DNA of 34,040 nt. Origin: Bacillota bacterium (GTDB lineage Bacteria > Bacillota > Dethiobacteria > Dethiobacterales > Dethiobacteraceae). The stretch lies in the NCBI GenBank assembly GCA_018725565.1, contig QLUR01000029.1, positions 1-34,040 of the forward strand, in the 5' to 3' direction. The position numbers and the translations under genes were made by a program. Positions 5,052 to 25,648 of this stretch are shown piece by piece. The first letter of the stretch is position 1, and each line of letters begins with the position of its first letter. A model generated the notes under the pieces. The model saw nothing but the letters and a program-made list of their open reading frames with translations. It was not told the DNA's origin and did no database searches.

Positions 5052-5067
5052 TATTTTATTGAGCGGA

Positions 5068-5111: not shown

Positions 5112-5134
5112 CGAATTAGCCGGGAGGGGCTCCA

Positions 5135-8147: not shown

Positions 8148-8761
8148 TGGCGCAGTTCAGGGAACCATATAATCTGATAATCACCGGTGTCGGCGGACAA
8201 GGCAACATTATGGCTTCCGGCCTGGTCGCCCTGGCTGCCAGCGCAGCCGGTTTCAAGGTGGTGGTAGGAGAAACCTATGGTGCTTCCCAGCGCGGCGGTT
8301 CGGTGGCAAGCCATATCAGGCTGTCTCTGCGACAGTCATACGGCCCTTTGGTGCCATATGGACAAGCTGACGTTATCATCAGTTTTGAGCCGCTGGAAGC
8401 ATTGCGGACTGCAGCAAAATATGCTAATCTGGAAACGGTGGTCATAGTCAACACGGCTCCGGTTTACCCGGTATCTGTGATTCTGAAAGAAGCCGACTAT
8501 CCGCAAACAGAGGACATCATTGAGGGATTGAAAAGCCTGGCCGGACGGGTCTTCAGCCTGGATGCCACTGGCCTGGCCCGGGAAGCCGGTGACCCCAAGG
8601 CTCAGAATATTGTCATGATCAACGCTTTATCCAACTGTCCGGGCCTGCCGCTCCGGCGCTGTCATTTTGAGGAAGCGCTTGACGAATTCCTGGCCGGCGC
8701 CAGCAGCGAGCAATTTGCCATAAACCGCCAGGCTTTTGCATTAGCAGTCAATCTGGGCTAG
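8147..8761 (+). CDS. iorB: Indolepyruvate ferredoxin oxidoreductase beta subunit-like protein (IorB family)
   Basis: This 204-residue protein of the pyruvate-ferredoxin oxidoreductase gamma-type domain is the normal partner of IorA. The N-terminal GVGGQGNIMASGLVALAA and the segment GETYGASQRGGSVASHIRL are family signatures. The start ATG overlaps the IorA stop (TAATG), so the two are translationally coupled and likely form the catalytic heterodimer. It contributes no cluster motif of its own. The gene closes the electron-transfer part of the sigma-54-driven operon and is followed after 44 bases by a flavoprotein gene. Confidence 0.88.
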   Translation: MAQFREPYNLIITGVGGQGNIMASGLVALAASAAGFKVVVGETYGASQRGGSVASHIRLSLRQSYGPLVPYGQADVIISFEPLEALRTAAKYANLETVVIVNTAPVYPVSVILKEADYPQTEDIIEGLKSLAGRVFSLDATGLAREAGDPKAQNIVMINALSNCPGLPLRRCHFEEALDEFLAGASSEQFAINRQAFALAVNLG

Positions 8762-8805
8762 TTTGCTCTAAAAAAATAATGTCTGTCAGACAAGGAGAAT
8801 GAGCC

Positions 8806-9771
8806 ATGTTTCAAACAAGATTGACGAAGATGCTGGGAATTGAATATCCTATAATCCAGGGAGGCATGCTCTGGCTTTCGGGAGCGGAACTCACGGCTGC
8901 TGTTTCCAATGCCGGCGGGCTAGGCATTCTTTCTTCGGCCACTTTCCCGGAGAAAGAAACCTTGAGGGCGGAGATCAGGCGGACCAGGCAAATGACTGAC
9001 AAGCCGTTTGGGGTAAACATCCCTTTGCTCCCAGCCATCAAGCCGCTGGATGTATACGGGTTAATTGAGGCAATTGCTGAGGAAGGAGTCAGGGTGGTGG
9101 AAACAGCAGGCCGGAGCCCTGAGGAATATCTCCCATTGCTGAAAAAGAACGGTATTAAAGTTATGCATAAAGTCACTTCCGTGCGCTTTGCCCGTAAAGC
9201 AGAAGCTATCGGCTGTGATATGGTGGTTATTGACGGCTTTGAATGTGCCGGGCACCCCGGCGAGGAAGATGTATCTTCCCTGGTGCTTTTACCTGCAGCG
9301 GTGGACGCTGTTTCTATTCCGGTAATCGCCTCCGGCGGCTTCGCCGACGGCCGCGGCTTAATTGCCGCGCTGGCGCTGGGAGCAGAGGGTATTCTAATGG
9401 GCACCCGCTTTATGGTTTCCCGGGAAGCACCTATGCACATGAAAATCAAAGAGTATCTGACCGGGCTTCCGGAAACGGAAACCACCCTTGTTTTGCGTTC
9501 CTTACGCAACTCAGCCCGTGTCATCAAAAATAGTGTGTCCAGCCGTGTGCTGGAAATAGAAAAACAAGGGGCAACCATAGAAGAACTGCTGCCTCTTGTT
9601 TCCGGCAAAAAAGAAAAAGAACTTATGGATACCGGAGACCTGGAAATTGGTCTGCTGCACTGCGGGCAGGTTGTCGGACTGATCCGTGATATTCCAGCTG
9701 TAGCTGAAATAATCAACAACATTATCGCACAGGCGACGGAGGTCAGAAAAAGACTCCAGTTGCAGCATTAA
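8806..9771 (+). CDS. Nitronate monooxygenase / FabK-like FMN enzyme (2-nitropropane dioxygenase family)
   Basis: This 321-residue TIM-barrel flavoprotein opens with LGIEYPIIQGGMLWLSGAEL. It has NAGGLGILSSATF (residues about 33-45), the family motif GFECAGHPGEED (about 144-155), and the FMN-phosphate-binding stretches PVIASGGFADGRG and GAEGILMGTRFM. The ATG at 8806 follows AAGGAG. In strict anaerobes this family is poorly described; members act as nitronate monooxygenases or as FabK-type enoyl-ACP reductases. Its position at the end of an acyl-CoA dehydrogenase operon suggests an enoyl-thioester or related flavin reaction, but this is only inference. A 13-bp palindrome (TGTCTGTCAGACA, 8780-8792) lies just upstream. 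Confidence 0.82.
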   Translation: MFQTRLTKMLGIEYPIIQGGMLWLSGAELTAAVSNAGGLGILSSATFPEKETLRAEIRRTRQMTDKPFGVNIPLLPAIKPLDVYGLIEAIAEEGVRVVETAGRSPEEYLPLLKKNGIKVMHKVTSVRFARKAEAIGCDMVVIDGFECAGHPGEEDVSSLVLLPAAVDAVSIPVIASGGFADGRGLIAALALGAEGILMGTRFMVSREAPMHMKIKEYLTGLPETETTLVLRSLRNSARVIKNSVSSRVLEIEKQGATIEELLPLVSGKKEKELMDTGDLEIGLLHCGQVVGLIRDIPAVAEIINNIIAQATEVRKRLQLQH

Positions 9772-9836: not shown

Positions 9837-9876
9837 TTCAGGCCTGCTCTCATCGGGCACAGTGCCTGAATTTTTT
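9837..9876 (+). terminator. Probable weak terminator of the plus-strand operon
   Basis: TTCAGGC (9837-9843) pairs with GCCTGAA (9864-9870), followed by TTTTTT (9871-9876). The loop is 20 bases long and contains a nested GGCAC-A-GTGCC. It lies 65 bases after the flavoprotein stop and overlaps the 3' end of the convergent regulator gene, a sensible place for termination. The stem is short, hence modest confidence. Confidence 0.5.
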
Positions 9877-11265
9877 CTGCTTCTTAACCAGCGTTGAATG
9901 GTCCACGCCCAACCTTTCCGCTGCCTTGCGCAATGAGCCGCAGCTCTCAACCGCTTCAGAAATCAGTCTATTTTCCAACCTGGCAACCGCCTCTTTCAAC
10001 GGTTTTATCTCCAACGGGCCTTTGCCGCTTAAGGTATACAGGATATAGTCCGGCAGGTTGCGGCTGCAGATCAGTCTCTCCTCGCTCATGATCACCAGCC
10101 GCTCAATAATATTTTCGAGTTCCCGGACATTACCAGGCCATCCATACTGCTCCAGCGCTTTGCATACTTCAGGAGACAGGGTGCGGTCATAGCTGTATTT
10201 TTGGTTGAACCTGTGCAAAAAGTGGTGGGCTAAGGGCAGGATATCTTCGCGGCGTTCACGCAGCGGAGGGATAAAGACCGGGATGACATTAATCCGGTAG
10301 AACAGGTCTTCCCGAAAAAGACCCCGCTTGACCATTTCTTCCAAATCTTTATTGGTGGCGCAGATAATACGAGTGTCCAGCTTTACCGGGCTGATGCCTC
10401 CAACCCGGTAAAATTCGCGATTCTGGATGGCCCTCAGCAACTTTACCTGCAGTGCTAATGGCAAATCGCCGATTTCATCCAAAAGTACGGTGCCTCTTTG
10501 CGCCGTTTCCAAAATGCCAGGTTTACCCATGGCGTTGGCACCGGTAAAGGCACCTTTCTCATAGCCGAACATCTCGGATTCCAGAAGGTTTTCCGGGATA
10601 GCCCCGCAGTTTATCTGTATAAACGGGCCGTCTTTGCGGTGACTCATTTTATGGATCAGCTTGGCCACCACTTCTTTGCCTACGCCGGACTCACCGTGCA
10701 TGTAGACATTAACATCGGCAGGTGATATTTTTAACAGCTTTTCCATGATGTTGCGCATAGTAGCACTGCGTGCAATAACCTGGTCCGCTTTTAACAGGCG
10801 GTTGCGCAATTCGGTAAGCTCTGAAAAAAAAGACTGGGTTTTGCTCTTGGTTTCCTGCAACTCTCTTTTCAGGTTGTCCAGGTCTGTGATCTCCCGAAAG
10901 TTGGCGATGTAACACAGCGGTTTTGTATCGCTGCCCGCCCGGTAAACCGGGACGCTGGTGATCAGGGCCTCTACCCCCGATTTAAGCTTATGAGTAAGCA
11001 GTATGGCACTCCGGTTGTTTTTGTACGAAATCACAGTTTTAGTTTCTTCAAGGATTATGCCCCGGTCTATCAGGTCCTGTGAAGTCAGGCCGATAATAGA
11101 ACCGGCGTTCATATTGGCCAGCCGCTGAATAGCTCTATCATTAGCGAAAAAGATGCGTCCGCTGTGATCGGAGAGGATGATCCCGTCGTAAGAGTGTTCC
11201 AGGATGGCAATCAAATCTTCGAGCGTTTCGATGCCATTTTCTTGCAGTTGCCTAAGCAGCTTCAC
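9850..11265 (-). CDS. Sigma-54-dependent transcriptional activator with PAS sensor domain (enhancer-binding protein)
   Basis: This bacterial enhancer-binding protein has about 471 residues when started at the GTG at 11265, which has GGGGGAAG at proper distance. The PAS domain spans about residues 20-130 (EHSYDGIILSDHSGRIFFAN), followed by a coiled linker at about 130-160. The AAA+ domain has Walker A GESGVGKE (191-198), the sigma-54-contacting loop GAFTGA (238-243) and Walker B VLLDEIGD (260-267). The C-terminal TyrR-like helix-turn-helix contains GSLRKAAERLGVDHSTL. An in-frame TTG at 11337 would add 24 residues, but it lies within a likely -35 box and lacks a ribosome binding site. The PAS domain probably senses a small molecule or acyl-CoA. 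It is the only sigma-54 activator in the window and sits between the two divergent gaps that hold four sigma-54 promoters. Confidence 0.93.
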   Translation of the reverse strand: MKLLRQLQENGIETLEDLIAILEHSYDGIILSDHSGRIFFANDRAIQRLANMNAGSIIGLTSQDLIDRGIILEETKTVISYKNNRSAILLTHKLKSGVEALITSVPVYRAGSDTKPLCYIANFREITDLDNLKRELQETKSKTQSFFSELTELRNRLLKADQVIARSATMRNIMEKLLKISPADVNVYMHGESGVGKEVVAKLIHKMSHRKDGPFIQINCGAIPENLLESEMFGYEKGAFTGANAMGKPGILETAQRGTVLLDEIGDLPLALQVKLLRAIQNREFYRVGGISPVKLDTRIICATNKDLEEMVKRGLFREDLFYRINVIPVFIPPLRERREDILPLAHHFLHRFNQKYSYDRTLSPEVCKALEQYGWPGNVRELENIIERLVIMSEERLICSRNLPDYILYTLSGKGPLEIKPLKEAVARLENRLISEAVESCGSLRKAAERLGVDHSTLVKKQKKFRHCAR

Positions 11266-11307
11266 GATAATCTTCCCCCGCGCGAAAAATTTGAGAGTCT
11301 TAACTAT

Positions 11308-11337
11308 ATTTGAACACGATAATAAACAGCTTGTCAA
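11308..11337 (-). promoter_or_regulatory. Candidate sigma-A promoter of the sigma-54 activator gene
   Basis: On the minus strand TTGACA (11337-11332) is followed after 18 bases by TCAAAT (11313-11308), about 43 bases before the GTG start at 11265. The -35 is perfect and the -10 is 4 of 6. It would give the activator its own housekeeping expression, separate from the sigma-54 operon upstream. Confidence 0.5.
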
Positions 11338-11422: not shown

Positions 11423-12715
11423 TTACAGCGAGTACAGTCCCGGATCAAAGCCGTTTTCTGGTTTATAGCGGTTATACAGATAGTGCCGGAAAGCAACATA
11501 TTGATTATAGTCGCAGTTGATGCCGACTTCACGCAAAGCCGCTATGAAATCGTCCTTGTCCGGCGGGCAGCTGTTGATGGCAATAGCCTGCCTGATATCA
11601 GGGTTATCCTTGTTCAGTGAACAGACACATTTCCCGAAGAGCAGTGTGTAATCGAAGCCCGGCGAGGCCTTTTGCCGCTTACCGGTAATTACTTCCACGC
11701 GGGGGAAGGGGGCTCCTTTAAAAGCTGACATCAAGAGGATCAGCATGGGGTTATACATTTTGGAACAGCCGGTACAAAGAGAACTGTCGTATTTCCTGAC
11801 GGCCAGTCCGGTGATACCCGCTTTCTGAAAGGCGACCGGCCCGGTGTCTTCAGTCGTCCAATCCCAGTCGTACTCAAGAGAAAAGCGGTGTTTTTCCAGG
11901 CTCTCTCCTCTGATTTCAAGCGCGGATAGACTGGTGTCTGCGCCGGTCAGGCCGGCGAAATAAGCCAGATGTTCAACTTCTCCGGCGCTGAAGCCCATCA
12001 GTTCAGCCCCGGCTATGTCGCAGGCCAGAATATTTTTTGAGGCCAGCAGAAGATTTTTTCTGTATGCCTCACCGATGTGTCCGGGTCCCCTGGCCAGCGC
12101 GAATACACCGTCGATTAATGTCAGGGCTACCGGGAGTTTGCCCGGGATGCGCGGAAAACTGTGGTCTAAATCGTGTTCCCTGCCGTGACAGTTTATTTTT
12201 GACTTCCGGTCAAGGCACCCCTTGAGGTTCTTAATGCCCAGTGAAACCAGGCACTGATTGTGGGTTTTCAGCACAGGGAGGTTGATGATTTTGTCGGCTT
12301 CCAGCACACTGCGGGCCAACGCAAGCTTTAATCCGTCAAAGTTCACTTTTTCGAACTTTTCTTCATTAAAGTCTACGAGGCGCACACCGTATTTTTCCTG
12401 CAGCTTGTTATAACCGAGGACAGTAAACATTGCTCTGCCGATAGTTTTGGGAATCATCAGCGGCCCTTCTCCGATGGTCAGACGGCGAAACCCTTCCTCG
12501 TACAGGATGCTGACCAGCGCGGACATTACAGCCGAGGTCGCTACCACGCCGTAAGGAGGGAAGGGCAGATCGAAATCCCAGGACACCAGATTTGGCTTAA
12601 TAAGAATCTTATCATTTTTATCAAGCCCGGCAAGCCCGTCACACAGTTCCAGTGCCTTACGCACAGATTCTCTCGGGTCGGTAAAGTTCACCAGGGAAAC
12701 AACGGGTTTTGACAT
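11423..12715 (-). CDS. DUF362 domain protein of unknown function
   Basis: This 430-residue protein matches the DUF362 pattern: an opening strand and helix (KPVVSLVNFTDPRESVRKAL), then KILIKPNLV, LTIGEGPLM, and the central KIINLPVLKTHNQCLVSLGIKNLKG. Several proteins of this family carry ferredoxin domains. Here no standard ferredoxin motif is present, but the C-terminal part has C314-x2-C317, C363-x-C365 and C383, which could bind a metal or cluster. The ATG at 12715 follows GGAGG. It is third in the minus-strand operon after the dehydratase-like and 3-hydroxybutyryl-CoA dehydrogenase genes. No enzymatic activity can be assigned; a role in cluster handling or electron transfer for the dehydratase is speculation. 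Confidence 0.8.
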   Translation of the reverse strand: MSKPVVSLVNFTDPRESVRKALELCDGLAGLDKNDKILIKPNLVSWDFDLPFPPYGVVATSAVMSALVSILYEEGFRRLTIGEGPLMIPKTIGRAMFTVLGYNKLQEKYGVRLVDFNEEKFEKVNFDGLKLALARSVLEADKIINLPVLKTHNQCLVSLGIKNLKGCLDRKSKINCHGREHDLDHSFPRIPGKLPVALTLIDGVFALARGPGHIGEAYRKNLLLASKNILACDIAGAELMGFSAGEVEHLAYFAGLTGADTSLSALEIRGESLEKHRFSLEYDWDWTTEDTGPVAFQKAGITGLAVRKYDSSLCTGCSKMYNPMLILLMSAFKGAPFPRVEVITGKRQKASPGFDYTLLFGKCVCSLNKDNPDIRQAIAINSCPPDKDDFIAALREVGINCDYNQYVAFRHYLYNRYKPENGFDPGLYSL

Positions 12716-12766: not shown

Positions 12767-13636
12767 CTACTTGCTGTAATCGTAAAACCCTTTGCCTGTC
12801 TTTTGGCCCCATTCTTTCTTAACAAATTTTTCTACAACGAGCGGGGACGGTTTATGAACAGCGTCTCCTGTTTCCTGGTAACGCTCCATACCAATATGAT
12901 AGGACAGATCTATCCCCGTAAGGTCCATTAAACGGAAGGGACCCAGCGGATGCCCCAGGGCAAGCGTTACCGCGGTATCAATGTCTTTATGCGAAGCTAT
13001 ACCCATATCATGAATGTATAACGCTTCGTGGTTTATGGCAGCCACTATGCGATTGACAAGAAAACCGTATATTTCTTTTTTAAGCATAATCGGAACCTTT
13101 CCGATGTCTTCGGTTAGAGCGAAAATTTTCTCCGCTGTTTCGTCGGAGGTGTGCGGACCTTGAACTACCTCTACCAGTTTCATGACCAACGCCGGGTTAA
13201 AAAAGTGCATGTTGCATACTTTGTCCGGGCGCTTGGTTGCCGGGGCGATTTTTGAGCTGACGATAAAGGAGCTGTTAGTCGCCAGAATGGCATGAGGGGG
13301 GCATAGTTCATCCAGCTTTGCAAAAAGCGTAAGCTTCAAATCCAACTTTTCCAGGATCGCCTCAATTACCACGTCGGCAGCAGAGGCAGCTGTTTTGAGG
13401 TCGCCGGTAAACTGAATATTTGCTTTGGCCTGCCGGGCGGTATCCTCAGACATTTTCCCCTTGGCTACCCTCTCCGGCAGATACTTGTCAACGAAACTTT
13501 CTGCCTTGCCTAAAATTTCAGGACTGACGTCAGTACACTTTACGCTGTAGCCGGCGATGGCAAAGCTCAGGGCAATTTGATGCCCCATGTTTCCTGCTCC
13601 TACCACACAGATGTTTTTAATCCCGGGTATAGTCAT
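12767..13636 (-). CDS. hbd: 3-hydroxybutyryl-CoA dehydrogenase
   Basis: This 289-residue short-chain 3-hydroxyacyl-CoA dehydrogenase has the typical length of clostridial Hbd. It starts with the Rossmann motif NICVVGAGNMGHQIALSFA. It then has ILATNSSFIVSSKIA and MHFFNPALVMKLVEVV with the catalytic His, KEIYGFLVNRIVAAINHEA, and LGHPLGPFRLMDLTGID, ending GQKTGKGFYDYSK. It oxidises (S)-3-hydroxybutyryl-CoA to acetoacetyl-CoA with NAD(P)+. The ATG at 13636 follows GGAGGC. It lies 45 bases downstream of the dehydratase-like gene and ahead of the DUF362 gene. With the crotonase and thiolase it supplies the lower part of the crotonyl-CoA route. Confidence 0.93.
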   Translation of the reverse strand: MTIPGIKNICVVGAGNMGHQIALSFAIAGYSVKCTDVSPEILGKAESFVDKYLPERVAKGKMSEDTARQAKANIQFTGDLKTAASAADVVIEAILEKLDLKLTLFAKLDELCPPHAILATNSSFIVSSKIAPATKRPDKVCNMHFFNPALVMKLVEVVQGPHTSDETAEKIFALTEDIGKVPIMLKKEIYGFLVNRIVAAINHEALYIHDMGIASHKDIDTAVTLALGHPLGPFRLMDLTGIDLSYHIGMERYQETGDAVHKPSPLVVEKFVKKEWGQKTGKGFYDYSK

Positions 13637-15241: not shown

Positions 15242-15257
15242 TGCAATTATTGTGCCA
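15242..15257 (-). promoter_or_regulatory. Sigma-54 promoter for the dehydratase-paralogue/hbd/DUF362 operon
   Basis: On the minus strand the sequence reads TGGCAC-AATAA-TTGCA, an exact core match with GG-N10-GC spacing. The expected start is near 15231, which fixes the translation start of the downstream gene at 15109 rather than at the upstream end of the open frame. Confidence 0.88.
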
Positions 15258-15572
15258 GAAAAACGGCTCTGTCCCCGGCAGGGCGGACAAGCAATAGCGA
15301 GAAGCCGCAGTGTTATTAAGGATGCAGAGGGTTGACGTTTTGCTTTTTTTGCGACAACGAAAATAGGAAGAACAGCACGGGTTAATAAGGTAGACAGGGT
15401 GCGTTCATTATTTAAACTAGGTGGACAATTGTTAAACATTTGAACTTGTGCCGGCCCAAATTGAGCACAGCACCTTCAGGTGGCTGCAAAAATAATTACG
15501 ATGCAAACTTGTCGCTGCCTTGTGAAAAGGTCTGTTCTCCGTCATGTTCCGGCGGCGGCCAGTCAGGTGCTC

Positions 15573-15588
15573 TGGCATGTTTCTTGCA
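15573..15588 (+). promoter_or_regulatory. Sigma-54 promoter for the crotonase/4-hydroxybutyryl-CoA dehydratase operon
   Basis: TGGCAT-GTTTC-TTGCA matches the sigma-54 consensus except the last base of the -24 box (T for C, common in functional promoters). GG and GC are ten bases apart. The start would be near 15599, about 53 bases before the ATG at 15652. Confidence 0.82.
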
Positions 15589-15651: not shown

Positions 15652-16425
15652 ATGGAGACAAAAAAACTGCTGATTGAAAGAAAAGAAGGATTTGTCGTGG
15701 CCACTATCACCAATCCGCCGGTTAACGCCTTGGGTCCGGATGCCGTGCAGGAACTGAGCGAACTGCTGGAAAGTTCCAGGGAGGACAGCGGGGTAAGGGT
15801 CATCGTTATCACCGGTGCAGGGGATAAATTGTTTAGCGCCGGGGCGGACATCAAAGGGTTTGCCGCCATCCAGGAGGGCAAAGGGCCCCGTATTGACGGA
15901 AATACTGTTTTCTTAAATGTCGAAAACTTTCCAAAGCCGGTGATAGCCGCGCTGCAGGGCAGCGCCTTTGGCGGAGGTTGTGAACTGGCAATGTCCTGCC
16001 ATCTGAGAATCATATCGGCGTCTGCTAAAATAGGCTTGCCGGAGATTAAGCTGGGAATCATCCCGGGGTGGGGCGGCACCCAGAGGCTGCCCAGGCTTAT
16101 AGGCAAAACGAGGGCCCTGGAAATGATGCTGACCGGCAATCCCCTGACGGCGGCGGAGGCCTTGAATTATGGTTTGGTTAACAGGGTAGTGCCGGCGGCG
16201 GAAGTCTTGACCGAGGCTATGTCTTTGGCCGCTGAACTGGCTAAAGGTGCCCCGCTCGCGCAAACAGCGGTAATTACTGCCGTTAACCGGGGGCTTGATA
16301 CCACTACCGAAGAAGGTATAAATATTGAAAGGGCCGGTTCCGCGATTGTTTTTGCCAGCGAGGACGCTAAAGAGGGAGCTATAGCCTTTTTCCAGAAGAG
16401 GCCTGCCAATTTCTCCGGGAAATAG
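15652..16425 (+). CDS. Enoyl-CoA hydratase (crotonase)
   Basis: This 257-residue crotonase-fold protein has the typical length for short-chain enoyl-CoA hydratase. It has the oxyanion-hole segment FSAGADIKGF, then FGGGCELAMSCHLRI and GLPEIKLGIIPGWGGTQRL, which provide both catalytic Glu residues of the hydratase reaction. It would convert crotonyl-CoA to 3-hydroxybutyryl-CoA. The frame is open upstream into the promoter, but ATG 15652 has AAGGGAGA at good distance and lies downstream of the sigma-54 promoter. It is the first gene of the operon that also encodes the canonical-looking 4-hydroxybutyryl-CoA dehydratase, whose product is crotonyl-CoA. Confidence 0.93.
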   Translation: METKKLLIERKEGFVVATITNPPVNALGPDAVQELSELLESSREDSGVRVIVITGAGDKLFSAGADIKGFAAIQEGKGPRIDGNTVFLNVENFPKPVIAALQGSAFGGGCELAMSCHLRIISASAKIGLPEIKLGIIPGWGGTQRLPRLIGKTRALEMMLTGNPLTAAEALNYGLVNRVVPAAEVLTEAMSLAAELAKGAPLAQTAVITAVNRGLDTTTEEGINIERAGSAIVFASEDAKEGAIAFFQKRPANFSGK

Positions 16426-16488
16426 ACCAGATTGCCCGGTACCTCTCAGACATCAGGCAACGGCAATAACACGGGGGGAGGTTTTTTA

Positions 16489-17946
16489 TTGAAGACGGCG
16501 GCAGAGTACGTGGAAAGCTTAAGAAGACAGAAGATGACCGTCTATATGTTCGGAGAGCAGGTAGAAAACCCGGTCGATCACCCCATTATCCGTCCATCCC
16601 TTAATTCCGTGGCCAAAACTTATGAATTGGCCGGCGACCCTCGCTATGAGGAGCTGATGACGGCATCCTCCAGTCTGACAGGGAAAAAAATTAACCGCTT
16701 TACCCATTTGCATCAAAGTTGTGCCGACTTGGTGAACAAAGTAAAAATGCTTAGGCTGCTGGGGCAGAAAACCGGTTCCTGTTTCCAGCGCTGTGTGGGG
16801 TTCGATGCTTTCAATGCCGTGGACAGTACCACTGCGGAAATGGACGCGGCGCTAGGCACGGGCTACAATAAAGCATTCCGTACCTTCCTGCAGCATGTGC
16901 AAGATGCGGACCTGGTTTGTAACGGCGCCATGACCGATCCCAAAGGGGACCGCTCGCTGAGAAGTCCCAGCCAGCAGGCCGATCCTGACCTGTATCTGCG
17001 AATTGTTGCCAGAGAGGCGGACGGTATCGTCGTGCGCGGCGCCAAGTGCCATCAGACCGGGGCCCTGAATTCCCATGAGGTCCTGGTGATGCCAACAGCG
17101 GCTTTAAGCGGCGCCGAAGACAGGGATTATGCCGTTTGCTTCGCCATACCTAGTGACAGTAAGGGATTGCTATATGTTTACGGGCGGCAGGCCAGCGATA
17201 CGCGCAAGCTGGAAAGCGGCGGCATGGATGTGGGCAATTGCCGCTACGGCGGGCACGAAGCGCTGATCATCTTTGAGGATGTCTTCGTGCCTTGGGAGAG
17301 AGTGTTCATGTGCGGTGAGTACCAGTTCGCCGCGCAGTTGGTGGAACGCTTTGCCGGCTATCACCGGCAAAGTTATGGAGGCTGCAAGGTGGGAGTCGGG
17401 GATGTGCTGATAGGCGCGGCAGCCCAGGCCGCCGAGTTTCAGGGGACTGACAAGGCTTCGCATGTCAGGGACAAACTAATTGAAATGGTCCACCTTAACG
17501 AAACCTTGTACGCCTGTGGAATCGCCTGCTCGTCTCAGGGGTGCGCGACAGTTTCCGGCACTTATCTGATCGATATGCTGCTGGCCAACGTCTGCAAGCA
17601 GAACGTGACGCGCTTTCCCTATGAAATTGCCCGGCTGGCCGAGGATATTGCGGGCGGGCTGCTGGCTACCATGCCTGCGGAAGCCGATTTCCGGCACCCG
17701 CAGGTGGGCAGGTACCTGGAGAAATACCTGAAGGGCGTTGCTGCAGTGCCGACGGAACATCGCCTGCGTATGCTCCGCCTGATCGAAACCCTGACTATCG
17801 GCACGGCGGCGGTGGCCTACAGGACGGAGTCTATGCACGGAGCCGGCTCGCCTCAGGCGCAGCGGGTAATGATTGCCCGCCAGGCTGATATGGAGCACAA
17901 GAAACGACTGGCGCGGGTGCTGGCCGGGATTGAGACGGAAACGTGA
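16489..17946 (+). CDS. abfD: 4-hydroxybutyryl-CoA dehydratase/vinylacetyl-CoA delta-isomerase
   Basis: This 485-residue FAD and [4Fe-4S] enzyme is almost the exact length of C. aminobutyricum AbfD. Cluster ligands are C98-FQR-C102, H292 and C299 (YHRQSYGGC). Residues reported as important in AbfD fall at identical or shifted positions: T190 (KCHQTG), E257 (GHEALIIFED), Y296, K300, Glu447 (TESMHGAGSP, AbfD E455) and Ala452 (AbfD A460). It converts 4-hydroxybutyryl-CoA to crotonyl-CoA by a ketyl-radical mechanism and is oxygen-sensitive. The start is TTG at 16489, with GGGGGGAGG upstream; an earlier in-frame TTG at 16432 lacks such a site. The crotonase gene precedes it by 63 bases and the gamma-carbonic-anhydrase-like gene follows by 15. 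Confidence 0.92.
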   Translation: MKTAAEYVESLRRQKMTVYMFGEQVENPVDHPIIRPSLNSVAKTYELAGDPRYEELMTASSSLTGKKINRFTHLHQSCADLVNKVKMLRLLGQKTGSCFQRCVGFDAFNAVDSTTAEMDAALGTGYNKAFRTFLQHVQDADLVCNGAMTDPKGDRSLRSPSQQADPDLYLRIVAREADGIVVRGAKCHQTGALNSHEVLVMPTAALSGAEDRDYAVCFAIPSDSKGLLYVYGRQASDTRKLESGGMDVGNCRYGGHEALIIFEDVFVPWERVFMCGEYQFAAQLVERFAGYHRQSYGGCKVGVGDVLIGAAAQAAEFQGTDKASHVRDKLIEMVHLNETLYACGIACSSQGCATVSGTYLIDMLLANVCKQNVTRFPYEIARLAEDIAGGLLATMPAEADFRHPQVGRYLEKYLKGVAAVPTEHRLRMLRLIETLTIGTAAVAYRTESMHGAGSPQAQRVMIARQADMEHKKRLARVLAGIETET

Positions 17947-17961: not shown

Positions 17962-18519
17962 ATGCTGATTACTTATAACGGCAAGACACCAAGAGTTTCA
18001 GAGAAGGCCTTCCTGGCGCCTGACGCTACCTTGATTGGCGACGTGACAGTGGAGGAAGGAGCCAGTATCTGGTTTGGCGCCCGGTTGCGCGGGGATTTCG
18101 GCAAAATCGTGATCGGGGCCTGCAGCAGCATTCAGGACAACGCTGTAATCCATGTCCTGCCGGGCGGTGCTACAATCCTGGAGGAACATGTTACCGTGGC
18201 GCACGGCGCCGTGTTACACAACTGCACGCTTAAAAAGGGCTGCGTAGTTGGCATGAACGCTGTAGTTATGGATAACGCAGTCGTCGGTGAGCAGGCGATT
18301 GTCGCCGCCGGCAGCGTCGTCGCCGACGGAGCGGAAATACCTGCCCGCCATTTGGCGGCCGGAACGCCGGCTGTCACCAAAAAGGAGCTGTCCGGCAAGG
18401 CGCTGTGGTGGGTGGAGGCCAGTTCAGCCGCCTATGTTCAGCTGGCGGAAAACTACCTGGAGCAGGGGATCGGCCGGGTTAAAGCCGGCGAGAAGATTTG
18501 TGGAAAAAATTTTCCTTAA
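17962..18519 (+). CDS. Gamma-carbonic-anhydrase-like left-handed beta-helix protein (PaaY/CaiE/YrdA type)
   Basis: This 185-residue hexapeptide-repeat protein shows repeats such as ATLIGDVTVEEGASIWFGA and IGACSSIQDNAVIHV. Metal ligands are likely H64, H81 and H86, the last two with the 5-residue spacing of the gamma class. A C-terminal helix closes the trimer. Family members include Zn/Fe carbonic anhydrases, the thioesterase PaaY and carnitine-operon CaiE. In this acyl-CoA operon a PaaY-like CoA-thioester hydrolase that relieves CoA trapping is at least as likely as a carbonic anhydrase. The ATG at 17962 follows TGGAGGCGC. It is the last gene of the dehydratase operon, 150 bases before the transporter genes. 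Confidence 0.87.
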   Translation: MLITYNGKTPRVSEKAFLAPDATLIGDVTVEEGASIWFGARLRGDFGKIVIGACSSIQDNAVIHVLPGGATILEEHVTVAHGAVLHNCTLKKGCVVGMNAVVMDNAVVGEQAIVAAGSVVADGAEIPARHLAAGTPAVTKKELSGKALWWVEASSAAYVQLAENYLEQGIGRVKAGEKICGKNFP

Positions 18520-18669
18520 CGCCTAAAGAGGATAAATGTCTGATAAACAGAATATTTGTCAAGAGTCAGAAAATTGGCTTTGTGAATAAAGTGCCGTTGA
18601 AATGGGGGATGCTTATAGTCTTTTTTTGATTCTTCGGACTGTTTTAAAAAAACGGGAGGAGTGGATGAA

Positions 18670-20343
18670 ATGAAAAAAAGAGCAGCAACCAGGGTTAAGC
18701 GGCTGAGCCTGCTGATGGTCGCCACGCTTGTTCTGGCAGCCGTCGTGTCCAGTCTGGCGCAGGCCGCCCCGGCCCCGCAGCAGGGACCGATCCGTGTTTC
18801 CATCGACGAAGCGGCGCTGACCCTGGAAGTAGCACCACAAATGGTCGGCGGCCGTGTCATGGTTCCGTACCGGGCCATTGCCGAACGGTTGGGTGCGAGG
18901 GTGGGCTGGGACAGCCGCACCCGGGTTGTTACGGTAACTAAAGGCGCAGACGTCATGCGTCTGACCGTAGGGCAGACGACCGCCACCGTCAGAGGCAGGA
19001 ATGTCACCCTGGATACGGCGCCTATGGTAGTGGCCGGGCGCGTGATGGTTCCCTTGCGCTTCCTGGGTGAGGGGCTAGGTGCCCGGGTGGATTGGGATGG
19101 CTCCAGAAGGATAGTTTCAGTGAGAACACCGCGGCCAGCCGGGCAGGCCCAGCTGCCTCAGGGTCCTCCCATTCGCATCGGCGTTGCCGGACCGATGGCT
19201 TTTATCGCTGGGGAACACATGTGGCACGGGGCAGTGATGGCGCAAGAAGACATCAACAGGGCAGGCGGTATCACTGTAGGCAATGTCAGAAGGCCTATTC
19301 AACTAATCAGGGTGGACACCAACGAGATTTTAAGCGTGCCGGACGCGGCCAGTGCCGTGGAACGGGCTATTACCCGCGACAGGGTTGATTTCCTTCTCGG
19401 AGGGGTGCGCACCGAAGCCGTACAGGCTATCCAGGACGTAATTTCCGAGCACAAGCGGCTATTTCTCGGGGTAGGAGCAGCGCATCCCATTCTTACCCAG
19501 CGGGTTGCCGATAATTACGAGAAATACAAGTACTACTTCCGGGTCAGTCCGCTCTGTGCCACCCATCTTGGCACGCTGATCTTTATGCAGCTGCGCGATG
19601 TGGCGGCTGTCGTGCGGAGAGAACTGGGCGTAGCCAGGCCGCGCGTGGCGATTGTAGCAGAACGGGCTGCCTGGGTTGAGCCGATCGTGGCGGCGGCCGA
19701 GCGGGTACTTCCGGGAATGGGGATGGATGTCGCCGGTATCTGGCGCCCCTCAGCCACAGCTAGCGACACCACGGCTGAACTGGCGGCGATTCGTGCCGCC
19801 GGGGCCAATATCATTATTCAGGTGTTCATAGGTCCCGTAGGCACGGTTTTTGTCAGGCAGTGGGCGGAAATGCGGGTGCCGGCTGCGCTGGCGGGGATTA
19901 ACACGGACGTCCAGGGAGGCCGCTTCTGGCAGGCCACCGGCGGCACAGCCAACTACGCGGCGACGATGGCCACTTTGGGCAGAATACCGCTCTCCCCGCA
20001 TACCATCCCGTTCTTTGACAATTTTATGCGGCGCCACAATAACGAAGTTCCCCTGTTCACCGCCTCAGGCGCGCATAATGCCCTGAATGTATTGAGGGGG
20101 GCTATTGAGCGGGCGGGGACGATTTCCGTAAACGAAGTGATTGAAGAGATGAAAAAGACCGACTTCCAAGGGCTCAGCGGCCAGCTTGTCTTTAACGAAC
20201 GGCATGATCTCAAGTTTGGCCCGGGCTACGTGATGTCTGTCGGAATCCAGTGGCAAAATGGAAAAGTTGAAACTTTCTGGCCGATTGGCTATGGCGGAAC
20301 AGTGCCGTACCGTCTGCCTCCGTGGATGAGACCCAGCAGATAA
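18670..20343 (+). CDS. Liv-type ABC transporter substrate-binding protein with N-terminal stalk (copper amine oxidase N-like) domain
   Basis: This secreted protein of 557 residues is longer than usual binding proteins (about 370-400). A signal peptide covers residues 1-32/33 (KKR start, hydrophobic core, AQA-A cleavage) with no lipobox Cys. Residues about 40-155 hold two repeats of the copper-amine-oxidase N-like stalk domain, each with a GRVMVP(Y/L)R motif followed by a GARV-W/D segment. The type-1 periplasmic binding fold (Peripla_BP_6) runs from PIRIGVAGPMAF (about 165) to the end. The start is ATG 18670, 8 bases after GGGAGGA; the GTG at 18661 is too close to that site. Ligands of the family include branched-chain amino acids, amides and aromatic or short acids; the ligase and catabolic neighbours favour an organic acid. 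Confidence 0.9.
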   Translation: MKKRAATRVKRLSLLMVATLVLAAVVSSLAQAAPAPQQGPIRVSIDEAALTLEVAPQMVGGRVMVPYRAIAERLGARVGWDSRTRVVTVTKGADVMRLTVGQTTATVRGRNVTLDTAPMVVAGRVMVPLRFLGEGLGARVDWDGSRRIVSVRTPRPAGQAQLPQGPPIRIGVAGPMAFIAGEHMWHGAVMAQEDINRAGGITVGNVRRPIQLIRVDTNEILSVPDAASAVERAITRDRVDFLLGGVRTEAVQAIQDVISEHKRLFLGVGAAHPILTQRVADNYEKYKYYFRVSPLCATHLGTLIFMQLRDVAAVVRRELGVARPRVAIVAERAAWVEPIVAAAERVLPGMGMDVAGIWRPSATASDTTAELAAIRAAGANIIIQVFIGPVGTVFVRQWAEMRVPAALAGINTDVQGGRFWQATGGTANYAATMATLGRIPLSPHTIPFFDNFMRRHNNEVPLFTASGAHNALNVLRGAIERAGTISVNEVIEEMKKTDFQGLSGQLVFNERHDLKFGPGYVMSVGIQWQNGKVETFWPIGYGGTVPYRLPPWMRPSR

Positions 20344-20352
20344 TGGCTCCCG

Positions 20353-20413
20353 GGGCGGTGAAAGGAGCCGCAAGTGCCTGCGCGAGTGCCGGCCGGAGTT
20401 ATTTTCACCGCCC
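20353..20413 (+). other. Intercistronic stem-loop between binding-protein and permease genes
   Basis: GGGCGGTGAAA (20353-20363) pairs perfectly with TTTCACCGCCC (20403-20413), an 11-bp stem. It is located 10 bases after the binding-protein stop. Such structures commonly protect the binding-protein mRNA and reduce read-through to permease genes. The bases after it (TGTTGATTTTA) are only moderately T-rich. Confidence 0.55.
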
Positions 20414-20458
20414 TGTTGATTTTACGGCATGATTGTTTTGCAGAAAGGTGTGAGGAAG

Positions 20459-21328
20459 TTGTGGGAGCTAATCCTGATTAACGGTTTGATTATCGGCGGC
20501 CAGTATGCCTTGCTGGCCCTGGGGTTTTCGCTTATTTTGGGCGTGGCCCGGGTGCTGAACTTGGCCCACCCTGCTTTTTATATGCTGAGCGCCTTTACTA
20601 TTTATACCTTTAGCCAGGTGCTGGATTTTAATCTGACGGTGACTTATATCCTCTCCCTGGTGTTTATGATCGGTCTGGGCGTTGTTATTTATCAGGTAAT
20701 ACTTGCTCCGGTCCGGGCGCAGACTTCCACCGTCCTGATTCTAGGATTGGTGCTGGGAATTGCGGCCCAGGAGCTGATGCTGATTTTTTACGGCGGGCAA
20801 TTCCGCTCTCTGACCAGGCTTGCTTCGGGGACTATGCAGCTGGGCGATGCCGTTATCAGCAACCAGCATATTCTGGCGCTAAGCGCTGTGATGTTGTCCC
20901 TGCTCGGCGTTTGGTTCCTTTTGTTTAAAAGCAGGTTCGGCATTCCTATCAGGGCGGTGGCTCAGGACCGGGAAGTGGCTAACCTGATGGGGATACCGGA
21001 GAGCCGGATTGCTATCTTAACAATGGCGGTTTCCGTTGCCCTGGCGGTGATAGCCGCGGCAATGGTAGCTCCTATTGGCGTCATCGATCCTCTGATGTGG
21101 CTGCACCCGCTGGTTATAGTGCTGACCGCCGTCATCCTGGGAGGCCTTGGCAGCATCAAAGGCAGCATTATGGCAGCTTTCATCCTGGCTTTTGTAGAGG
21201 TAAGCCTTGTTTTCCTTGCTCCCGGAGCTGCTTTTTTGCGCGGTGCCGTTTCCATGTTCGTGATGCTGACGGTGCTGATGTTCAAACCGGAGGGGCTTTA
21301 CGGTGTATTCATGGAAGGGGAAAGGTAG
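20459..21328 (+). CDS. livH: Branched-chain amino acid/amide-type ABC transporter permease (LivH family)
   Basis: This integral membrane permease has 289 residues from the TTG at 20459, which has AAAGGTG 8 bases upstream. An ATG at 20429 in the same frame has no ribosome binding site and would add 10 residues. The N-terminal pattern ILINGLIIGGQYALLALGFS is typical of LivH. About eight membrane segments follow, and the cytoplasmic ATPase-contact loop reads GIPIRAVAQDREVANLMGIP. The C-terminal part has VIDPLMWLHPLVIVLTAVIL and GGLGSIKGSIMAAFILAF. It is followed after 9 bases by livM. Confidence 0.9.
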   Translation: MWELILINGLIIGGQYALLALGFSLILGVARVLNLAHPAFYMLSAFTIYTFSQVLDFNLTVTYILSLVFMIGLGVVIYQVILAPVRAQTSTVLILGLVLGIAAQELMLIFYGGQFRSLTRLASGTMQLGDAVISNQHILALSAVMLSLLGVWFLLFKSRFGIPIRAVAQDREVANLMGIPESRIAILTMAVSVALAVIAAAMVAPIGVIDPLMWLHPLVIVLTAVILGGLGSIKGSIMAAFILAFVEVSLVFLAPGAAFLRGAVSMFVMLTVLMFKPEGLYGVFMEGER

Positions 21329-21337
21329 GCGAAATAA

Positions 21338-22390
21338 GTGTTTGCATATTTGGCTCGCAAAATTTGGCGTGATTTTCAAGGAGAAATCCTTGCTTTGCCG
21401 ACCAGGACCATTTTGTTTGCGGCAGCTGTGGCGCTGCTGCTGCTGCCGCTGGTTACGGACGACGCCTACCTGTTGCGCATCGTTGCTACGGCTTCAATTT
21501 TTGCCGTTTACGCGGCAAGCTGGGACTTGCTGGTAGGATTTTCCGGGCAGACTACCCTGGGTCACTCCCTGTTTTTTGGAATTGCTGCTTACACGGCTGC
21601 TTTGTTGAACCTGCGCTTTGGCCTTCCCGCGTTTCTGACGATACCGGCAGGAGCCCTGGCGGCTGTGCTGGCAGGCTTGCTCCTTTCCCTGCCGGCATTG
21701 AGGGTAAGGGGTCCGTATTTTAGTTTGGCAAGCTTAGCAATGCCGATTATCCTGATGGGCCTAATCTTCAGCTTTCCTGGGCTAACCGGCGGTGAAATGG
21801 GTCTTTCCGGTATCAGCCGCCTGGCTGGCACGCGCACGGGAGAATATTATTTTCTTTTAATATCAATGTTTGTACTGACGCTGCTGATGTGGAAAATTGC
21901 CACTTCCAGAACCGCGCTGATTTTCCATGCCATCCGGGAAGACGAAATTGTGGTGCGTGTTTCCGGGATAAATACCACGTATTATAAAATACTGGTTTTT
22001 TGTTGCAGCGGCTTTTTTGCCGGCATGGCCGGCAGCCTGTATGCTCATTTCTTACGGGTTGTTGGTCCCTCAACCCTGGATATCATGATGTCTTTGCAGG
22101 TTATCATCTGGGGGATCTTTGGAGGTGTGGTCACAATTTACGGTCCGGTTGTCGGGGTATTCATTCTTTACCCTTTGCTGGAATATCTGCGCATTATTCC
22201 TGATTGGCGGATGCTGATTTTTGCCGGCATTGTCGTTGTCACTCTGCGCTTTATGCCGGAAGGAATTTCTAACAAATTCCAGGACCTTTTGGAGCGTCAG
22301 TGTCCACGCTGCAAGGAGCGCAATATTTTTATGCGGAAAGAGTGCCGGATCTGCTGCACCGACATCGGGACGTGCAGCCGGGTAGGTTAG
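21338..22390 (+). CDS. livM: Liv-type ABC transporter permease (LivM family) with C-terminal zinc-ribbon-like tail
   Basis: This 350-residue permease has about nine hydrophobic segments, the LivM signature LLVGFSGQTTLGHSLFFGIA, and the coupling-loop region FHAIREDEIVVRVSGINTTY. It differs from common LivM proteins by a cytoplasmic C-terminal tail with C322-x2-C325-x10-C336-x2-C339, plus C340 and C346, a pattern able to bind zinc. The start is GTG at 21338 with AAAGG upstream. It precedes the acyl-CoA ligase gene by 31 bases. The tail could mediate assembly with the ATPases or with the ligase, but no function is established. Confidence 0.88.
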   Translation: MFAYLARKIWRDFQGEILALPTRTILFAAAVALLLLPLVTDDAYLLRIVATASIFAVYAASWDLLVGFSGQTTLGHSLFFGIAAYTAALLNLRFGLPAFLTIPAGALAAVLAGLLLSLPALRVRGPYFSLASLAMPIILMGLIFSFPGLTGGEMGLSGISRLAGTRTGEYYFLLISMFVLTLLMWKIATSRTALIFHAIREDEIVVRVSGINTTYYKILVFCCSGFFAGMAGSLYAHFLRVVGPSTLDIMMSLQVIIWGIFGGVVTIYGPVVGVFILYPLLEYLRIIPDWRMLIFAGIVVVTLRFMPEGISNKFQDLLERQCPRCKERNIFMRKECRICCTDIGTCSRVG

Positions 22391-22421
22391 ACATTACTTT
22401 AATTAATGAGGTGAACTAAAA

Positions 22422-24122
22422 GTGGAAGCATATCTGAGCAAACCCTGGCTGGCCAGTTACGACCCTGGCGTGCCGGCAACAGTGGATGTTCCGGAAGAGT
22501 CTATCCCGCAGGCTTTCAAAAAAGTTGTCGATCAGTTCCCTGATAAACTTGCCATTGTTTTTTACGGCAAGCAGCTTACTTACCGTGAGTTGCTGCAGCA
22601 GGTGGAAATGATGGCCTCCTCCCTGTCCGCCATGGGAATCGGCAAGGGAGATGTGGTCGCCCTCTATGTGCTGAACAGCCCGCAATACGTCATCACTTAT
22701 CTGGCGGCGCTGGCCGCCGGTGCGGCGGTGACGCCGGTCAGCCCGGTGTTTACCAGTCATGAACTGAAGTATCAGCTGCAGGACAGCGGGGCAAAGGCCA
22801 TTCTTTGCCAGGACATCCTGTACGACAACCTGGATAAGACCGGACTTAAACTGGACAAGGTCATCGTTACCGGCGTTGAAGAGTATCTGCCCGCGGTCCG
22901 TAAGCTGCTTGGCAGGTCGATGTTGAAGAAATTTGCCTTGGAGATGAACTTGCCCGCGCCATCCATCCCCAAGGAGAAAAATATATACTGGTTTCAGGAC
23001 TTGCTAAAGCCGGCAAAGGCAGCCGTTGCACCTGTCCAGATTGACCACCAGCGCGACCTGGCTTCCATTTCTTACTCCGGCGGCACCACAGGCCCGCCGA
23101 AAGGCGTAATGCTGAGTCATGCCCAACTCCGGGCCACCGCCGCGATGATTCATGCTTATTACCCTAATTCTGTCAAGGGTCAGGAGGTTTACCCGGCTTT
23201 CCTGCCTTTGTACCATGCCTATGGACAGATGGCCGTGATGGTTGGCGGGCTGTTGCATGCAGCCACTTTGATTGTTTTCACCACACCGGCTATCGATGAA
23301 ATCCTGGAGGCTCTCGAACGTTACCAGGCGACAGTTTTCTTCGGGGTTCCCACCATGTACGAATATCTTAAGGAATACGACAAGACAAGCAGGGTCAACT
23401 GGCGGCGGTTCAGGCTAATCCTGTGCGGCGCCGATACCTTGCATGAACGGACGGTTACTGACTGGGAGAGACGCACCGGTTCGCATATCACGGAAGGGTA
23501 CGGGCAGACGGAAGGCGGCGGCGTTTCCTTGGGGCACCCGCAGAACAAGCCGAAGAAGGGCAGTATCGGCGTGCCATTGCCCGGTCTTACGGCGGCCGTT
23601 GCTGATCCGGACGATCCTACCATTTTCCTGCCGGTTGGTGAGGTGGGGGAGATTATCATCCGCGGTCCGAACGTGATGCTTGGCTATTGGAACAAGCCGG
23701 AGGCCACGGCTGATGTGTTAGTGGAAATAAACGGGGAGCGCTGGCTGCGGACAGGTGACCTGGGCAGGATGGATGAAGAGGGTTATTTCCATTTTGTGGA
23801 TCGCAAACGTGATTTGATTAAATTCAAAGGGTATTCCGTCTTTGCCCGCGATGTTGAGGATGTTTTATACCAGCACCCGCAGGTTAAAGCGGCCGGAGTG
23901 ATTGGCGTTCCGGACCCCCGTGTGGGACAGCTCATTAAGGCAAATATAGTGTTGCAGCCGGAGGCGCGCGGCAAGGTTTCCGAAGAGGCAATTATCCAGT
24001 TTTGCACGGAAAGGCTAGCTTTCTACAAAGTGCCCAAAATTGTGGAATTCAGAGGGGAGCTGCCTAAAACGGACGTAGGCAAAGTGTCGCGCCGCGAGTT
24101 GCGGGAAGAGGAGGAGGCCTAA
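22422..24122 (+). CDS. Acyl-CoA ligase (AMP-forming, ANL superfamily)
   Basis: This 566-residue adenylate-forming CoA ligase carries the P-loop-like motif YSGGTTGPPKGVMLSH (about 209-224) and ITEGYGQTEGGGVS (A5). It also has RTGDLGRMDEEGYFHFVDR (A7/A8), the hinge-region KFKGYSVFARDVE, and PKTDVGKVSRREL with the catalytic Lys near the C terminus. It would activate the imported acid with ATP and CoA. Chain length cannot be deduced; it resembles medium/long-chain and aryl acid ligases. The start is GTG 22422 after GAGGTGA. Its location between livM and livG, inside a transporter operon, suggests activation coupled to uptake. Confidence 0.92.
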   Translation: MEAYLSKPWLASYDPGVPATVDVPEESIPQAFKKVVDQFPDKLAIVFYGKQLTYRELLQQVEMMASSLSAMGIGKGDVVALYVLNSPQYVITYLAALAAGAAVTPVSPVFTSHELKYQLQDSGAKAILCQDILYDNLDKTGLKLDKVIVTGVEEYLPAVRKLLGRSMLKKFALEMNLPAPSIPKEKNIYWFQDLLKPAKAAVAPVQIDHQRDLASISYSGGTTGPPKGVMLSHAQLRATAAMIHAYYPNSVKGQEVYPAFLPLYHAYGQMAVMVGGLLHAATLIVFTTPAIDEILEALERYQATVFFGVPTMYEYLKEYDKTSRVNWRRFRLILCGADTLHERTVTDWERRTGSHITEGYGQTEGGGVSLGHPQNKPKKGSIGVPLPGLTAAVADPDDPTIFLPVGEVGEIIIRGPNVMLGYWNKPEATADVLVEINGERWLRTGDLGRMDEEGYFHFVDRKRDLIKFKGYSVFARDVEDVLYQHPQVKAAGVIGVPDPRVGQLIKANIVLQPEARGKVSEEAIIQFCTERLAFYKVPKIVEFRGELPKTDVGKVSRRELREEEEA

Positions 24123-24126
24123 GAAT

Positions 24127-24894
24127 ATGGCTGAGGACTTTTTGCAGGTAGAGCGCCTGTGCAAACGCTTCGGCGGCCTGCACGCCGTCCGTGACGTCAG
24201 TTTTAGCGTCGGGCGGCACGAAATGGTTGGCTTGATCGGCCCCAACGGTGCCGGGAAAACTACCTTGGTGCGGCTGTTGCTTGGTATCCTCCGGGCTGAC
24301 TCGGGGCGTGTGCTCTTCAGGGGGCAAAATCTGCTCGGTAAAAAACCCTGGGAAATAGTCAGCCAGGGCTTGGCTCTTACTTTTCAGAATGCCCGCCCCT
24401 TTGCCCGTCTGCCGGTTATTGCCAACGTAATGGTCTCCTGCCTATCTCCTCGCGCTTCCAAGCGCGGGGAGTGGGTGAAAAAGATTGAATCGCGGGCCAT
24501 GGACGCCTTGGAATTTGCCGGTATTGCCGATATGGCGAGAGAGCCTGCCTCCTGTCTTTCCCAGGGCGACCTGAAGCGGCTGGAGGTAGCCCGGGCCATT
24601 GCCTGTGAACCGGATCTCTTGATTCTTGACGAGCCTTTCGGCGGCTTAAGCCCTACCGAGACGGGTCTGATGGCCAAATCATTGCGCAGACTTCATAAAG
24701 GAGGCCGGTTTGGACGGTTGCACAGTGAGGGGCCTGCTATGATCATTATTGAACATAAGCTGTCCGAGTTGATGAAAATTGTGGACAGAGTGATTGTGAT
24801 TAACTTTGGAGAACTGTTGGCTGTCGGCACACCGGAGGAGATTGTCGCCAATCCTCAGGTAATTGAGGCGTACATCGGCAAGGAGGTCGACTGA
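24127..24894 (+). CDS. livG: Liv-type ABC transporter ATPase (LivG family)
   Basis: This 255-residue ATPase has Walker A GPNGAGKTTL (about 39-48), the Q-loop in LALTFQNARPF, the signature region LSQGDLKRLEVARAIA (usual LSGGQ replaced by LSQGD), Walker B LLILDEPFGGLSP, and the H-loop IIEHKL. A short Gly/Arg-rich insertion (KGGRFGRLHSEG) lies between Walker B and the H-loop, longer than in most LivG proteins. The ATG at 24127 is 4 bases after the ligase stop, with GGAGG in the ligase end. Confidence 0.9.
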   Translation: MAEDFLQVERLCKRFGGLHAVRDVSFSVGRHEMVGLIGPNGAGKTTLVRLLLGILRADSGRVLFRGQNLLGKKPWEIVSQGLALTFQNARPFARLPVIANVMVSCLSPRASKRGEWVKKIESRAMDALEFAGIADMAREPASCLSQGDLKRLEVARAIACEPDLLILDEPFGGLSPTETGLMAKSLRRLHKGGRFGRLHSEGPAMIIIEHKLSELMKIVDRVIVINFGELLAVGTPEEIVANPQVIEAYIGKEVD

Positions 24895-24895
24895 A

Positions 24896-25648
24896 ATGCT
24901 GCTGGAAGTAAAGGATTTGTCGGTCAGCTATGACATGGCGACCATCTTGAGCGGTATCAGTATTAATGTACAGGATGGCGAGCTTGTTGGTTTGGTCGGT
25001 CCTAACGGGGCCGGCAAGACGACTTTGCTGCGGGCGATTACCGGCTTGGTCAAATGGGAAAAGGACAACAGGCGCGGCCAGCGGATGGGAAAAATCACCC
25101 TGGAAGGGCAAGTCAGCTTTATGGGAGAGCAGATCAGCAACCTTTCCGCTGATCAAATAGCCCGCCGCGGCTTGGTGCACTGCCCTGAGCGCCGCAGACC
25201 CTTTAAGGAAATGTCGGTTTACGAGAACATCCTGGCCGGCGCCTATCTCCTGAAAAAGAACAGTCCGGAGTTTAAACGGCTGCTGGAGGAGGTATATTCC
25301 CTGTTCCCCATCCTGAAAGACAGGGGAAGGCAGATCTCAGCCACGCTTTCCGGCGGCGAACAGCAGATGCTGGCCATTGCCAGGTCACTGATGGGCAAGC
25401 CCAAACTGCTGTGTATCGACGAGCCGTCTGTGGGGCTGGCGCCGATTGTCAAGCGCGAACTGTTTGAGCGCATCGCGGCGGTGGCACGTTCAGGTATAAC
25501 TGTTTTGCTGGTGGAGCAGGATGTGGCCATGACCTTTGCTATGTCCAACCGTAACTATGTGTTGTCACACGGCAGGCTCGTCAGTGAAGGGACGAGCGAG
25601 GTACTGCTGCAGGATGAAGATCTCCGCAAGTCTTACCTGGGGCTGTAA
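24896..25648 (+). CDS. livF: Liv-type ABC transporter ATPase (LivF family)
   Basis: This 250-residue ATPase has LVGPNGAGKTTLLRAITGLV (Walker A), the LivF-type segment GLVHCPERRRPFKEMSVYEN, LSGGEQQMLAIARSL (signature), LLCIDEPSVGLAPIV (Walker B) and LLVEQDVAMTF (H-loop region, with Gln-Asp instead of His as usual in LivF). The ATG at 24896 follows AAGGAGG at the end of livG; the frame open farther upstream overlaps livG and is not used. It is the last gene of the transporter operon, directly before a strong terminator. A small insertion (about 58-75, VKWEKDNRRGQRMGK) is seen after Walker A. Confidence 0.92.
   Translation: MLLEVKDLSVSYDMATILSGISINVQDGELVGLVGPNGAGKTTLLRAITGLVKWEKDNRRGQRMGKITLEGQVSFMGEQISNLSADQIARRGLVHCPERRRPFKEMSVYENILAGAYLLKKNSPEFKRLLEEVYSLFPILKDRGRQISATLSGGEQQMLAIARSLMGKPKLLCIDEPSVGLAPIVKRELFERIAAVARSGITVLLVEQDVAMTFAMSNRNYVLSHGRLVSEGTSEVLLQDEDLRKSYLGL

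Follow-up and report, generated by a model that had tools for sequence, protein, structure and literature searches.

A predicted divergent sigma-54 promoter pair with a shared enhancer dyad between two operons of the 4-hydroxybutyryl-CoA-dehydratase family

The 34,040-nucleotide stretch of DNA considered here, called the window below, is the whole of contig C35 (QLUR01000029.1) in a 2.67 Mb draft genome of a Bacillota bacterium of the Dethiobacteraceae (GCA_018725565.1), which comprises 112 contigs. It holds two divergent intergenic gaps, and the second of these, at 15242-15588, is the subject of this text. On the minus side the gap faces HpaB1, a paralogue in the 4-hydroxybutyryl-CoA-dehydratase family whose ATG at 15109 is preceded by GGGGGAGG; on the plus side it faces an enoyl-CoA hydratase family gene (ECH; ATG at 15652, preceded by GAAGGGAG), in one operon with HpaB2. 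The minus operon runs in the order HpaB1, 3-hydroxyacyl-CoA dehydrogenase, DUF362 protein and a PAS-AAA-HTH_50 activator, here the window activator.

Both edges of the gap carry a -24/-12 box of the sigma-54 type, defined as TGGCAY-N5-TTGCW with GG-N10-GC spacing. The minus strand reads TGGCAC-AATAA-TTGCA from 15257 to 15242 and the plus strand TGGCAT-GTTTC-TTGCA at 15573-15588; the two boxes are correctly spaced, face outward and are separated by 315 bases (15258-15572), so that exact matches bear out the divergent pair put forward in a preliminary description of this DNA. The window contains four exact boxes, every one inside the two divergent gaps, against an average of 0.089 and at most 2 in 1000 order-2 Markov simulations of the window, and the description was equally right to place four such promoters beyond chance. 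Genome-wide, where all counts come from pattern searches only, there are 20 exact boxes vs 2 for the reversed control pattern; a few of the 20, inside long open frames, are probably chance matches. The genome also has a sigma-54 gene (C1:184254-184727, Sigma54_DBD, E=3e-58). As a prediction from sequence, 15242-15588 is confirmed as a real divergent sigma-54 promoter pair.

A gap-to-gap comparison finds a perfect dyad, TGTTTACATTTTAAACA, at 2957-2973 in the first gap and a related dyad in the second, and no long sequence common to both gaps beyond it. Derived from the window gaps only, the unrefined dyad GTTNAA-N4-TNAAC matches the window exactly at three places only (2958, 15403 and 15431), all in the gaps: a common enhancer motif, for which the preliminary description had proposed a search, is present in both. 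Before refinement this dyad also matches at 2 of the 16 other sigma-54 loci of the genome, both times a short way upstream of the box. Refined to GTTYAAANNNTNAAC, the dyad occurs at five places in the genome, namely the three in the window together with C2:1804 and C2:7521 on another contig, and all five lie within ~200 bases upstream of perfect sigma-54 boxes. The genes served by the two C2 dyads are an acyl-CoA ligase and a thiolase, and between the dyads lie an acyl-CoA dehydrogenase, a second HBD and an activator gene. Because the refined dyad also stands before two C2 boxes, the regulon is larger than the four operons in 20 kb first proposed: the shared dyad supports a single regulon, and at least two further promoters on C2 belong to it in addition.

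Dyad centres lie 105 to 190 bases from the window boxes, the gap-2 dyads 135-181 bases from either box. These distances fall in the range published for Clostridiales, where enhancer sites, like the TGT-N10-12-ACA dyads of CrbR, are often several and mostly 100-250 bases upstream (Nie et al. 2019, PMC6615313). A matrix trained on the sites of other genomes ranks positions 2957, 15430 and 15402 1st, 2nd and 4th of all window positions, a test that is partly circular because the external sites were found with the window-derived pattern. Two good matrix matches, on contigs C39 and C34, fall within coding frames and are regarded as chance hits. Gap 2 has extra weak dyads at 15380 and 15422. A further dyad, TGTATAAATATTTAACA at 27529-27545, scores the same as the gap-2 sites and lies just upstream of a FadB-thiolase-FadE operon; another regulator may use it as an operator, or the match may be due to chance.

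Two activators come into question as readers of the dyad. The one on C2 (C2:4017-6071) is a PrpR_N-PAS-AAA-HTH protein of 684 amino acids with the variant motif GAFSGA; between its HTH region and that of the window activator, identity is 24%. The best NCBIfam match is PrpR for the C2 protein (TIGR02329, 405.9 bits, below the curated cut-off of 499.2) and PrdR for the window activator (NF041552, 409.7 bits, below the curated cut-off of 795). In other genomes a dyad was counted if it was exact and lay no more than 300 bases upstream of a sigma-54 box with at most one mismatch. Around relatives of the C2 activator (12 loci, activators at least ~42% identical to the C2 protein) the dyad stands near a box 7 times vs 1.3 expected, at 6 of the 12 loci (P=1.5e-4). 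For relatives of the window PAS-type activator it stands near a box at none of the 29 loci, and 80 loci from another collection have it once. The enhancer search in related genomes, also proposed in the preliminary description, thus leads to sigma-54 boxes at activators of the PrpR_N type. The C2 activator group has a near-invariant recognition helix, ISRTTLWKKLK, and its targets in other genomes, judged from translated sequences, include thiolases and acyl-CoA dehydrogenases.

The closest PAS-type loci have a different motif. At the 8 loci closest to the window activator, which were picked after their dyads had been seen, GGTG-N8-CACC is found near a box 7 times vs 0.96 expected (P=2e-5), two of them in L048, where the recognition helix is identical to that of the window activator. 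It is a candidate enhancer motif of a PAS-type activator clade. Copies beside sigma-54 boxes lie in L048 (6858 and 6936), L168 (9333), L170 (11993) and L171 (5336 and 8263). Neither gap of the window contains GGTG-N8-CACC, even with one mismatch, nor did any target of the window activator turn up in its genome; the short contig of L047, with an 84% activator relative, has no sigma-54 box and no dyad.

Further evidence comes from G011, a genome of the same family, in which an orthologue of the C2 activator (70% identical) lies in a locus with IorB, IorA, FrhB, DUF362, HBD (66%), thiolase and acyl-CoA dehydrogenase. An acyl-CoA ligase and HpaB1 (66%), and after them a transporter, are divergent to these genes; the gap in between carries outward-facing sigma-54 boxes, one of them with a single mismatch, as well as three dyads ~20 bases apart. 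The gene set that is split over C35 and C2 here thus sits with that activator there. Since the dyad follows relatives of the C2 activator and the window gaps are without GGTG-N8-CACC, control of both gaps probably falls to the C2 activator, in trans; the regulator implied in the preliminary description, the neighbouring window activator, is probably the wrong one.

We consider it likely that the second gap is a shared-enhancer divergent sigma-54 pair in an acyl-CoA regulon, with the C2 activator acting in trans on the predicted dyads. The sequence shows the boxes, the dyads, their genome-wide distribution, the association with PrpR_N loci and the gene content; we infer binding, looping, activation, signal, operon extents and pathway. 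Sigma-54 RNA polymerase would sit closed at both gap-2 boxes, and a hexameric activator on the dyads 15403-15417 and 15431-15445 would open both promoters through DNA looping. The dyad at 2958-2972 would bring the first gap under that activator, to which at least two C2 promoters (acyl-CoA ligase; thiolase) would answer as well. Most likely this activator is the C2 protein with PrpR_N-PAS-AAA-HTH architecture, and the window activator, as the last gene of one target operon, would form a second tier, probably a target rather than a reader of the shared dyad. The pathway would be anaerobic short-chain acyl-CoA catabolism through the ligase, the 4-hydroxybutyryl-CoA-dehydratase family, hydratase, dehydrogenases and thiolase, with FrhB/IorAB as probable electron partners. 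A full two-tier cascade, including the second sigma-54 activator and an HpaB1 with a different reaction tied to acyl-CoA dehydrogenase/FrhB/IorAB, is a tentative extension that we hold to be rather doubtful.

The window activator might itself read the shared dyads and control all four operons, with positive autoregulation. Its gene comes last in one of the four, as a rule activator genes adjoin their targets (PMC6615313), its architecture is complete with GAFTGA present, and the dyad fits the TGT-N10-12-ACA class given for PrdR, its best NCBIfam match (PMC6615313). However, L048, C102, G004 and G009, which have the same or a similar recognition helix, carry GGTG-N8-CACC at their boxes instead; with that motif in neither gap and the shared dyad tracking relatives of the C2 activator, we think control by the window protein unlikely, if still worth serious attention. 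More improbable is that both activators act, with the GTT/AAC dyads serving the C2 protein and other sites, not recognised here, the window protein: the presence of an activator gene within the regulon hints at feedback, and gap 2 has the extra weak dyads, but no second-type site is found in either gap (GGTG-N8-CACC, at most one mismatch). The boxes could also be chance matches or relics, the operons using sigma-70-type promoters, and gap 2 does contain a sigma-70-like match (15435-15407, minus strand, 10/12). That match overlies the dyads, and such matches are common in shuffles; a box count far above chance, boxes that are intergenic and correctly oriented, a common enhancer dyad and a sigma-54 gene in the genome make this explanation hardly credible.

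Besides the circular element in the matrix ranking and the late choice of the PAS-type loci, several points weigh against control by the C2 activator through shared dyads. GTTNAA-N4-TNAAC is not enriched genome-wide (24 strand matches vs 20 in the control); the unrefined dyad is informative only by position relative to sigma-54 boxes, and the dyad at 27529 scores high without an adjoining box. The activator contig, C2, comes from the same draft metagenome bin (98% complete, 4.7% contamination), where membership is not proven; its GC content differs little (52.1% against 53.2%). Over the 700 bases upstream of HpaB1, the other genomes examined show no sigma-54 box, at most one mismatch being allowed; in G011 a box precedes the ligase-HpaB1 operon. 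The divergent promoter arrangement with two dehydratase-family operons appears patchy and is not widely conserved.

The two flanking operons differ in their dehydratase-family genes. We take C99, C103, H292 and C299 to be cluster ligands and E257 and E455 to be catalytic in 4-hydroxybutyryl-CoA dehydratase. HpaB2 has all six, together with Y296 and K300, and matches the Clostridium aminobutyricum enzyme (PDB 1u8v) over its full length (E=1e-208). HpaB1 shares with that enzyme the four cluster ligands, and also has Tyr296 and Lys300, but differs at both catalytic positions (E257->D, E455->A); its relatives that cover these sites have D (H in one) at Glu257 and G, A or S at Glu455. Judged by these residues, the HpaB2 operon very likely carries the gene of a 4-hydroxybutyryl-CoA dehydratase, and the HpaB1 operon that of a divergent paralogue. 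As HpaB1 is without two catalytic residues, its role as a dehydratase is unproven: the preliminary description of two dehydratase operons holds in that both contain a gene of the family, with HpaB2 canonical, and goes too far for HpaB1. The gamma-butyrobetaine lyase BbuA was tried as a lead for HpaB1 and dropped, being of the acyl-CoA-dehydrogenase type; its identity to 4-hydroxybutyryl-CoA dehydratase is ~10% (PMC8364193).

Sigma-54 control of abfD and crotonyl-CoA-type clostridial operons had already been predicted comparatively (PMC6615313, PMC12316311), and the regulon is therefore of an essentially familiar kind. Compared with the XanR/CrbR regulons of Clostridium (PMC6615313), the present locus has two divergent abfD-family paralogues with FrhB/IorAB, DUF362 and a transporter, and its targets lie on two contigs. 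A survey of sigma-54 in Clostridia (PLoS One 2025, PMC12316311) predicts COG2368 and beta-oxidation-type families to be sigma-54 dependent, as here; it deals with family enrichment, and in the sections consulted neither this locus nor its enhancer or activator comes up. The PrpR_N sensor domain is common to the C2 activator and PrpR, the activator of propionate catabolism, but no prp genes are seen among the C2-activator targets. What is added is that four boxes become a regulon open to test, for which both an enhancer and an activator other than the obvious neighbour are predicted, an example of how proximity in the genome can mislead the assignment of activators to sigma-54 promoters. The dehydratase paralogue HpaB1 and the FrhB-IorAB unit would be linked to one acyl-CoA pathway in poorly studied anaerobes.

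Table 1. Promoter boxes, predicted enhancer dyads and genes around the two divergent gaps of the window
Feature	Position	Strand	Basis or remark
Sigma-54 -24/-12 box TGGCACAATAATTGCA, HpaB1 operon	15242-15257	-	exact match; simulation
Sigma-54 -24/-12 box TGGCATGTTTCTTGCA, ECH-HpaB2 operon	15573-15588	+	exact match
Sigma-54 box TGGCACATTGATTGCA, first gap	2845-2860	-	exact match
Sigma-54 box TGGCACTATTATTGCA, first gap	3155-3170	+	exact match
Predicted enhancer dyad, first gap, within TGTTTACATTTTAAACA (2957-2973)	2958-2972		matrix rank 1st
Predicted enhancer dyad a, minus-strand reading GTTTAAATAATGAAC	15403-15417		matrix rank 4th
Predicted enhancer dyad b, minus-strand reading GTTCAAATGTTTAAC	15431-15445		matrix rank 2nd
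HpaB1, 4-hydroxybutyryl-CoA-dehydratase-family paralogue, 475 amino acids	13682-15109	-	sequence comparison
3-hydroxyacyl-CoA dehydrogenase	12767-13636	-	Pfam, NCBIfam
DUF362 protein	11423-12715	-	domain match
Window sigma-54 activator (PAS, AAA+ with GAFTGA, HTH_50), at the end of the minus operon	9850-11337	-	
Enoyl-CoA hydratase family (ECH)	15652-16425	+	NCBIfam
HpaB2, canonical 4-hydroxybutyryl-CoA dehydratase	16432-17946	+	residues checked
Hexapeptide protein, gamma-carbonic-anhydrase/PaaY/CaiE-like	17962-18519	+	
Branched-chain-type ABC transporter genes and AMP-forming acyl-CoA ligase	18661-25648	+	
Acyl-CoA dehydrogenase, first gene in first-gap minus operon	1570-2772	-	
Na+-translocating decarboxylase beta subunit, probably in operon of 1570-2772 gene	199-1317	-	
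First-gap plus operon	3228-9771	+	acyl-CoA dehydrogenase 3228-5051, FrhB/FdhB-like 5135-6244
First-gap plus operon, rest		+	IorA 6237-8147, IorB 8147-8761, FabK/NMO-like 8806-9771

The transporter/ligase block (Table 1) is codirectional with the ECH-HpaB2 operon and has a gap of ~140 bases upstream; read-through into it from the plus promoter is possible. Its first part, 18661-20343, is a branched-chain-type substrate-binding protein with a copper amine oxidase N-terminal domain in front. A terminator-like hairpin at 11383-11354 lies upstream of the window activator gene, as does a weak sigma-70-like match at 11347-11319, so that expression of this gene may be partly independent. The operon of the first gap unites acyl-CoA dehydrogenase, FrhB-like, IorA and IorB genes within 3228-8761, and FrhB-IorA(B) is found again near HpaB1 in G011 (L189/L177) and G046 (L191), a recurrence that suggests an electron-transfer unit linked to this acyl-CoA pathway. 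A third abfD-family gene of the present genome (G000) lies at C1:862-7266 (L001), behind a perfect sigma-54 box at C1:3026, where it follows two CoA-transferase genes and adjoins a GAF-PAS sigma-54 activator of its own.
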